In this document: piece by piece, positions 31,887 through 33,390 of the stretch
How positions within the stretch are numbered: the stretch's first letter is position 1
Layout: every line of letters starts with the position of its first letter
DNA from: Occallatibacter riparius
Lineage (GTDB): Bacteria > Acidobacteriota > Terriglobia > Terriglobales > Acidobacteriaceae
Length of the DNA stretch: 64,000 bases
Assembly: GCF_025264625.1 (NCBI RefSeq)
Contig: NZ_CP093313.1
Location: 5,022,001-5,086,000, forward strand
Direction: 5' to 3'
Notes under the pieces: model-generated
Databases searched by the model: none
The model's input: only the letters and a program-made list of their open reading frames with translations
What the model was told of the DNA's origin: nothing
Made by a program: the position numbers and the translations under genes

Positions 31887-33329
31887 GTGCAGACACGAAT
31901 CCTGTGCGTTGACGACGATGCGGCCGTATTGAGGTCGCTGGAGGCGGTTCTAGTGAGCAGCGGCTTCGCTGTGGATGCGGTCTCAAGCGTCAGGGAGGCG
32001 CTGGAGAGCATCAGCCGCCGGAAGTATGATGTGCTGCTGGCCGATCTTAACGTGGGCGAACCGGGCGACGGTTTCACGGTGGTAAGCGCAATGCGCCGAG
32101 TGCAGCCGGACGCAACCACGTTCATCCTTACGGGCTACCCCGATTTCGAGTCGGCGATTCGCGCGATCCGCGCGCAGGTGGATGATTACTTTCCGAAGCC
32201 CCTGAACGTGCAGGACCTGCTTGCGGCGATCAGGACATCGCGCAAGGGGAAGAGCTCTGTGAGCAAGATGCAGAGCCCCGTGAAGTTGTATGAGTACCTG
32301 CGCCGGCACAGCGATGATTTTTGCGAGCGATGGCTGCAGGAGACACTGAAAGACCCCGAGGTAGCGGCGCTGCCCCTGACGAGGGAAGAGCGGATCGACC
32401 ACGTTCCCAAGCTGCTGGAAGAACTGGCGCGCACGATGGAACTGGGTGTCGACGTGCTGAGCGACGGCATGACCGAAAGCGCGCGGAAGCATGGGCGCAC
32501 GCGCTACGAGCAGGGATACACGATTTCGCAGATTGTGACGGAATCGCGGGTGTTGCAGCAGGTGTTGAGCACGAGCATCCAGACGGACCTGCTGGCTATC
32601 GATTTGAGCGCACTGGTTCCGGACACGTTCAGGATTGGGGAGTTTGTGGAGGCGGCGCTGGAGACGTCACTTCATGCGTACCAGGCGCAGGTTCCGCGGT
32701 CGCTGCAGACATCGGTTTCGATGCTGTACAAGTCGCCGCACCTGGGGGTGGGGATTGCGGATGAAAACCGGATCACCGACGCGAATGACGCGCTGCTGAC
32801 CATGATTCAGTACACGCGCGAGCAGATGCTGGCGGGCGAGATTGACTGGCTGAAGATGACGCCGGTGGAGTTGCGCCAACGCGACATCAATGCGATGGAA
32901 CAGATTCGCGAGTACGGCGCGTGCGTTCCATTCGAGAAGGAGTTTATTCTTCCGGATGGGTCACGGCTACCGTTCCTGGTGGGAGCGGTGCGGCTGACGG
33001 CGCAGCCTCTGCAGTGGTCAGTCTACATTGTGAACCTGACGGAGCAGAGAAAACTACACGAGGCGGAGACGAAGGTTCGGGATTGGGAGTCACGGTACGC
33101 GATTATCAACCGGCTGGCGCACGAGATTAACAATCCGCTGGCGGCGCTGATGTTCGTGGTTCACCTGATGGGGACGCATCCGGATCTGTCGGGGGATTCG
33201 CGCGAGCTGGCCGTTAGTGCTGAGGAAATGCTGAAGAGGATTGCGGCGGTGGTGGCGCAGGTGCTGGAGGAGAGCCGGGTGGCCACCTGCGGTGGGGCTG
33301 ACTGCGCCTCCGGCGCCACTCCAGACTGA
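31887..33329 (+). CDS. REC-RsbRD-PAS-HisKA signalling protein lacking an ATPase domain
   Basis: 480 aa from a GTG start. Residues 1-125 are a receiver domain (CVDDDAAVLRSLEAVL, phosphoacceptor in LLADLNVG, TGYPDF, FPKPLN). Residues ~130-280 resemble the RsbRD/RsbR N-terminal domain (YLRRHSDDFCERWLQETL). Residues ~285-405 form a PAS domain (GVGIADENRITDANDALL). Residues ~410-465 hold a HisKA H-box (INRLAHEINNPLAALMFVV). No HATPase_c N, G1 or G2 boxes follow, so it cannot be a complete kinase by itself. The last 15 codons coincide with dispersed repeat family A. It could be a phosphotransfer partner or a truncated kinase. Confidence 0.8.
   Translation: MQTRILCVDDDAAVLRSLEAVLVSSGFAVDAVSSVREALESISRRKYDVLLADLNVGEPGDGFTVVSAMRRVQPDATTFILTGYPDFESAIRAIRAQVDDYFPKPLNVQDLLAAIRTSRKGKSSVSKMQSPVKLYEYLRRHSDDFCERWLQETLKDPEVAALPLTREERIDHVPKLLEELARTMELGVDVLSDGMTESARKHGRTRYEQGYTISQIVTESRVLQQVLSTSIQTDLLAIDLSALVPDTFRIGEFVEAALETSLHAYQAQVPRSLQTSVSMLYKSPHLGVGIADENRITDANDALLTMIQYTREQMLAGEIDWLKMTPVELRQRDINAMEQIREYGACVPFEKEFILPDGSRLPFLVGAVRLTAQPLQWSVYIVNLTEQRKLHEAETKVRDWESRYAIINRLAHEINNPLAALMFVVHLMGTHPDLSGDSRELAVSAEEMLKRIAAVVAQVLEESRVATCGGADCASGATPD
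33283..33313 (-). repeat. Dispersed repeat family A, copy 5 (inside coding end)
   Basis: On the minus strand this reads GGCGCAGTCAGCCCCACCGC followed by AGGTGG, a copy of the repeat seen at 9714-11836. It encodes the C-terminal ATCGGADCASG of the REC-PAS-HisKA protein. Confidence 0.65.
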
Positions 33330-33340
33330 TTTAGGGTTGT

Positions 33341-33390
33341 GGTTTTCCACCCTGTCGACAGAAAGAAGTCGACAGGATGGGGCACGGGTG
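33341..33390. repeat. Structured repeat family C, copy 1
   Basis: GGTTTTCCAC precedes the stem CCTGTCGAC (33351-33359), which pairs with GTCGACAGG (33368-33376), followed by ATGGGGCACGGG. The flanks match those at 40031-40080, while the stem bases differ but remain paired. Confidence 0.75.

Follow-up and report, generated by a model that had tools for sequence, protein, structure and literature searches.

The window, that is the whole 64,000-nucleotide stretch of DNA analysed, lies at 5022001–5086000 of the single 6,794,547-base contig of the Occallatibacter riparius genome (G000:C1). At contig positions 5053887–5055329 it contains an open reading frame (ORF) of 480 residues, the end of which runs into a dispersed repeat. 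The features are listed here in window positions:

31887–33329, + strand: CDS of 480 aa with a GTG start, encoding a REC-RsbRD_N-PAS-DHp protein without HATPase (ORF list, Pfam, orthologues)
31899–32234, + strand: receiver domain (REC), residues 5–116, with D9, D10, D53, T82 and K104 intact (Pfam, alignment)
32286–32579, + strand: RsbRD_N domain, residues 134–231 (Pfam)
32757–32996, + strand: PAS domain (PAS_9 match), residues 291–370 (Pfam)
33105–33281, + strand: HisKA/DHp domain, residues 407–465, with H412-E413-I-N-N416-P417 (Pfam, alignment, AlphaFold)
33282–33370, + strand: copy of a dispersed repeat that contributes the stop and the 15 codons before it; the left edge holds to within a few bases and the right edge is a minimum, as the query ended at 33370 (blast matches, copy alignment)

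Response_reg (1.1e-20), RsbRD_N (1.2e-10), PAS_9 (2.5e-8) and HisKA (1.5e-8) were each matched above the Pfam cut-off, the HisKA match spanning positions 6–63 of the 66 in the profile. The Pfam scan of the protein showed no HATPase domain, which confirmed the original prediction of these four domains without an ATPase domain. When the 6.79 Mb contig was searched in six frames (E<=0.1), no HATPase_c was found between positions 4957118 and 5160902; the zone free of it extends about 97 kb upstream of the gene and 105 kb downstream. In this genome HATPase_c lay within 400 bp downstream of 39 of the 41 HisKA matches. One of the two exceptions was the present ORF, and the other was a 462-aa GAF-HisKA ORF (L094, G000:C1 4526396–4526539, minus strand), whose HisKA match is limited to the first 44 positions and which lacks HATPase; it is possibly a truncated kinase. 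The protein possesses the HisKA domain and the H-box of HisKA-type histidine kinases and is devoid of HATPase_c. Lacking an ATPase domain, it is not expected to be a kinase or to phosphorylate itself from ATP.

The AlphaFold model (mean pLDDT 84) had a pTM of 0.48, so that the relative placement of the domains is unreliable. The DHp region was predicted as a helical hairpin (helices 405–430 and 435–468), and the same hairpin was obtained when the PAS-DHp part was modelled alone. In the repeat-encoded end, residues 472–480 had a pLDDT below 50. Among the 50 matches listed in a structure search with the full-length model, mainly the receiver was matched; the 50 listed for the PAS-DHp model were LOV/PAS proteins, several of them histidine kinases, and no new family emerged.

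The 3' end and the dispersed repeat

Three full-length homologues were found, all in Acidobacteriota records: G008 (60% identity) and G007 (56%) in a search of 60 genomes, O. riparius included, and L061 (60%), identical to the copy in G101, in a separate contig scan. The Pfam match to RsbRD_N was slightly below the cut-off in G007, and that to PAS_9 was below it in L061. No HATPase was detected by Pfam in any of the three. They end in ...VLAESQDGPS, ...VLVESSEEASWEVPKL and ...VLLEVQY, so that they extend 5, 11 and 2 residues, respectively, beyond the site aligned with S463. Across the four long forms the mean pairwise identity was 0.69 in REC, 0.50 in RsbRD_N, 0.66 in PAS, 0.56 in HisKA and 0.17 in the tail; by these values the HisKA domain is kept and the tail is not. 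Upstream of the G008 orthologue (L093, 8110–9500), an array of a different repeat holds several frames open, including that of the orthologue itself.

Within the O. riparius genome, the segment 33262–33370 was matched at 64 places (E<=1), one of them being the segment itself; the best of the others is 82% identical to it over 86 bases. The left edge of the longer copies fell at 33282–33284 and was common to six aligned copies on the same strand (five other rows, left unturned, are uninformative). It follows that codons 466–480 and the TGA stop are derived from the repeat, as the original prediction had noted for the last 15 or so codons and its repeat family A. The repeat was absent from the ends of the three orthologues: over the region from 150 bases upstream to 600 bases downstream of each stop, blastn gave no match or just 8-base ones due to chance (E 0.9). 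A known copy of the O. riparius genome, used as control, was found at 4e-6.

The same prediction had raised the possibility of a kinase cut short by insertion of this repeat. The end of the gene does lie inside the repeat, but the comparison with close homologues, which that prediction had itself named as the refuting test, refuted the idea: three orthologues free of the repeat and of HATPase_c stop at the corresponding point, the repeat end is not conserved, intact longer orthologues lacking the repeat were not found, no HATPase_c match exists within about 97 kb, and the stand-alone PAS-DHp relatives in G107 and G136 (see below) also lack HATPase. Truncation by the repeat is accordingly rejected as hardly credible, and the shared end point indicates a conserved design and not a broken kinase.

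The repeat is best regarded as a distinct and incidental feature; it altered nothing but the tail, for which disorder is predicted. The RNA of this copy folds with ordinary stability (z -1.68; 13 of 200 shuffled sequences were as stable). In about 11 of 30 flanked copies (33282–33370 and L002–L030, in the O. riparius genome), the repeat started within 10 bases of the stop codon of a gene, and in all 11 the identical edge faced the gene; this is a simple count made with a crude ORF caller, and some copies are tandem pieces. Unlike these, the copy at 33282–33370 overlaps the end of the gene. It is apparently a further copy of an element associated with gene 3' ends, and it accounts for the tail only. 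The repeat was also seen in tandem arrays, for example at G000:C1 2739060–2739326.

The HATPase-less family and its two halves

A profile built from the four long forms was searched against 397 genomes of the order. Long forms were present in O. riparius, G008 and G101, and 122 of the 397 genomes had a match at E<=1e-40. Most of the matches listed covered the REC-RsbRD half only, in open frames usually of about 265–340 aa. The PAS-HisKA half existed alone in three other genera, as ORFs of 219 aa in G107 and 237 aa in G136, both with PAS and HisKA and without HATPase according to Pfam, and in G137 as an ORF interrupted by one in-frame TAG. With a PAS-HisKA profile, six rows (three long and three stand-alone) were found at E<=8.1e-71, and the next match was at 1.5e-41; from there on the matches were full kinases and PAS-only proteins. 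A class-wide draw of 399 genomes, overlapping with the order-level draw, returned the same six at E<=1e-45. The HATPase-less PAS-DHp family thus comprises 6 of the 397 genomes of the order, plus G007.

The seven HATPase-less rows formed one clade (support 100/100) when placed in a tree together with 18 kinases related to them, every one of which possesses HATPase_c (Pfam). The tree was limited to kinase-like rows with a fetched locus, the rows that matched in the PAS part alone (L117, L118, L120, L130, L133 and L137) being left out. With its root placed on the kinases, it had the four fused forms nested among the stand-alone forms with moderate support (90/86 to 94/90). In a tree of REC-RsbRD sequences, the four fused forms were one clade (100/99) among the short forms, which points to a single fusion. 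Two rows, L098 and L102, were dropped from this second tree because their slices had too few residues, L100 (G287) was included with a partial sequence of 206 residues, and several rows duplicate one genome (e.g., L075 and G136). It was built without the short forms L034–L046 and without the damaged or cut L077, L081, L085 and L086, among which L081 is apparently frame-shifted and L085 and L086 end early. The simplest history would be one loss of the ATPase domain followed by one fusion. The loss would have come first, since PAS-DHp relatives occur as proteins of their own; such a protein would then have joined a REC-RsbRD_N protein.

In the genomes G219 and G250, of the same genus, a stand-alone PAS protein (L117 and L118, respectively) is close to the PAS of this family but lacks a DHp. 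This suggests that the DHp is dispensable somewhere and argues against a DHp that is always needed. The PAS protein of L117 and L118 lies, by eye, between riboflavin-kinase/FAD-synthetase-like and penicillin-binding-protein-like genes.

The residues D9, D10, D53, T82 and K104, which we take to be those of receiver phosphorylation, were invariant in 26 aligned REC-RsbRD proteins. H412, E413, N416 and P417 were present in all seven HATPase-less rows, as was the motif HE[IVL]NNPL. The PAS domain showed similar divergence in the HATPase-less clade and in the kinases (identities of 0.54 and 0.51, respectively). The H-box reached 0.79 in the clade versus 0.88 in the kinases, the rest of the first helix 0.43 versus 0.58, the second helix 0.37 versus 0.53 and the linker 0.28 versus 0.73; the kinases, too, keep the H-box best within the DHp. 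In kinases the linker and the second helix contact the ATPase domain, and their drift is what is expected after the loss of this docking. We read the pattern, in few sequences, as a constraint probably retained on the phosphate chemistry and lost where the ATPase domain would dock.

Neighbouring genes and the stressosome

Upstream of the gene lie flgK, a flgL-like gene and then a 151-aa ORF without Pfam match, and downstream lies a DUF4097 gene. A flagellar regulator was considered, as the gene is located 909 bases downstream of the flgL-like gene, but was discarded: the neighbours of the three orthologues are unrelated (by eye), and the position therefore says little. Inspected by eye, the four long loci showed no common neighbours, and the surroundings of these and of the three stand-alone genes revealed no conserved partner kinase or regulator. 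An exception is G137, where a gene for a single-domain receiver (Pfam) is located 54 bases upstream of the TAG-broken PAS-DHp gene, on the same strand. This pair fits a partnership of receiver and DHp, with the reservation that the PAS-DHp gene there has a stop codon.

Among 19 loci with a short REC-RsbRD protein, the gene directly upstream was a LuxR/NarL-type regulator in three (L072, L078, L083). In L072 and L078 a GAF-HisKA_3-HATPase kinase gene precedes the regulator; the L083 contig begins inside the regulator gene. G107 (L148) has kinase, regulator and short REC-RsbRD in this order as well. The short proteins may thus be accessory regulators of such kinase/regulator systems. As for the other 16 loci, L080 follows a hybrid HisKA kinase, L076 follows an ordinary HisKA kinase and L084 faces away from a HisKA_3 kinase; the rest had no two-component neighbour by eye. 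A separate short REC-RsbRD protein was found in all three genomes with a stand-alone PAS-DHp protein, as compared with any match in 122 of 397 genomes, a co-occurrence that is suggestive only. In the REC-RsbRD tree the short copies from these three genomes were not adjacent to the fused forms.

The gene was originally predicted to encode a phosphotransfer or scaffold protein linking the stressosome with two-component signalling. The first part stays plausible, the REC residues and the H-box being intact; the stressosome part found no support. Pfam detected no STAS domain in the protein, and no rsb genes were present among the neighbours between 28487 and 34255 (Pfam) or further out (by eye). 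A stressosome co-antagonist of the RsbR type was therefore rejected, as the C-terminal STAS domain and adjacent rsbS/rsbT genes are missing. The genome encodes two RsbRD_N proteins, and the second one is an RsbRD_N-STAS protein in an RsbRST-like cluster at 3.17 Mb, 1.9 Mb away. This cluster (L092, G000:C1 3165000–3181000) comprises the RsbRD_N-STAS protein, a STAS protein, an RsbT-like ORF (so named by position and size, with a HATPase_c match at 3173527–3173814) and a HATPase_c_2-SpoIIE protein, followed by two hybrid kinases: a 714-aa protein that joins an anti-sigma-type HATPase_c_2 to HisKA-HATPase and two receivers, and next to it a REC-HisKA-HATPase kinase. L092 is a more direct link between stressosome and two-component signalling than the 480-aa protein, for which the link is weak. 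A full-text literature search, with most subscription journals outside its scope, found no paper covering both acidobacteria and RsbRD.

Possible roles and known systems

We propose that the protein is a response regulator with a DHp dimer as output, which could act as an ATP-free phosphotransferase, as a response-regulator phosphatase or as both, and which would derive from a former PAS histidine kinase. We estimate the probability of this reading at about 0.45. In the model, a separate kinase would phosphorylate REC, and the RsbRD_N and PAS domains would adjust the DHp dimer. The four-helix bundle of the DHp could exchange phosphate with its own receiver or with that of another regulator, on the model of the Spo0B, ChpT and PhyT phosphorelays, or could remove it, on the model of the HisKA phosphatases. 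Several observations count against the reading: the family is small, the G219 and G250 proteins do without the DHp, the degenerate ATPase domain of ChpT and PhyT is missing altogether, the H-box is slightly less conserved than in kinases, and the G137 copy has a stop codon. Our order of preference would be phosphotransfer, with or without phosphatase activity, then a pure phosphatase, then a scaffold.

A dedicated response-regulator phosphatase, though unlikely, is the best placed of the alternatives. N416 of the DHp would hydrolyse the phospho-aspartate of a partner under a switch formed by REC and PAS, and H412 would not be used for transfer. No ATP is needed, and the asparagine, four residues after the histidine, is kept in 7/7 sequences; an Asn or Thr at this place is required for HisKA phosphatase activity, according to PMC3510030. 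The same source describes the H-box glutamate equivalent to E413 as important for kinase activity and not required for phosphatase activity (PMC3510030), and yet E413 is also kept in 7/7. In reply it may be said that kinases, too, strongly conserve the motif in its entirety, and that seven rows are few.

Less probable than the phosphatase, and doubtful in our eyes, is a scaffold in which the DHp would only pair subunits so that REC and RsbRD_N bind other proteins, no phosphate passing via H412. Such a role would agree with the PAS-only relatives in G219 and G250 and with the abundance of REC-RsbRD proteins without DHp (122/397 genomes with a match at E<=1e-40, mostly that half among the matches listed). 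A parallel is offered by the archaeal REC-PAS-HisKA proteins, for which dimerisation is among the roles suggested by Galperin et al. (PMC5847659). On the other hand, a mere dimeriser would not need the His, Glu and Asn residues, and the H-box is far better conserved than the other parts of the DHp (0.79 compared to 0.37–0.43), a tendency that kinases share.

One particular form of phosphotransfer would be a phosphorelay node in a single protein. By analogy, a Spo0F-like receiver charged by an unlinked kinase would be followed by a Spo0B-like DHp passing the phosphate to a distant regulator, gated by the two sensor domains. The node would need no catalytic remnant and would have arisen by the fusion of two families. 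So specific a version is unlikely.

Half of a split kinase, with H412 phosphorylated in trans by a separate ATPase-only protein, is improbable. The mycobacterial pair Rv0600c/Rv0601c, reportedly two incomplete kinases, would be a precedent, and the O. riparius genome contains 75 HATPase_c matches compared with 41 for HisKA. The pair is mentioned in PMC9274095 as kinases working with TcrA. However, no HATPase_c lies near the gene, and none was seen by eye in the flanks of the other three long forms. Among eight HATPase loci of the O. riparius genome without a HisKA match, one, L140, has an H-box-like stretch (by eye), and the three smallest adjoin STAS genes, like anti-sigma kinases. Moreover, the parts that drifted, the linker and the second helix, are those that face the ATPase domain.

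We return to the preferred reading, that of a response regulator with a DHp output, and to the systems it resembles. The nearest PAS-HisKA relatives found are PAS histidine kinases of the HEINNPL type from the same bacterial family (e.g., G126 and G009), with an identical H-box; they run on into HATPase_c (18/18 compared), whereas the HATPase-less family does not. The likeness to stressosome RsbR/RsbRD proteins is in RsbRD_N, and the difference is in the lack of STAS and, among the neighbours, of rsbS/rsbT. Phosphotransferases derived from histidine kinases include ChpT (PMC3433190) and PhyT (PMC5898713), and the latter paper names Spo0B alongside ChpT among the degenerated kinases. With Spo0B, ChpT and PhyT the protein shares a DHp whose histidine is predicted to accept phosphate and an expected lack of autokinase activity, and a four-helix-bundle dimer is expected from the motif and the predicted structure. 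A degenerate ATPase-like domain persists in ChpT and PhyT, whereas the chain of the 480-aa protein stops shortly after the second DHp helix; it also unites receiver and DHp in one chain.

HATPase-less HisKA proteins have their own classes in the P2CS paper (PMC2716373), and such proteins are often misannotated as kinases, a statement made for archaea in PMC5847659. The present small family, of single origin and with a conserved H-box, shows that an ATPase-free HisKA protein can be a stable design, and it is a compact case for asking, via the two positions H412 and N416, what a DHp does without a catalytic domain. Archaeal REC-(PAS/GAF)n-HisKA proteins without HATPase, for instance AF_1472, are described in PMC5847659, which states that none had been studied and proposes roles in phospho-acceptance, phosphotransfer, phosphatase activity or dimerisation. 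The likeness is one of architecture, both having REC, PAS and HisKA with its His and no HATPase. The 480-aa protein differs in being bacterial, in containing RsbRD_N and in being a traceable fusion of two families that exist separately. The HATPase-less REC-PAS-HisKA architecture is thus already described, though unstudied, in archaea, and what is new here is RsbRD_N and the fusion that can be traced.
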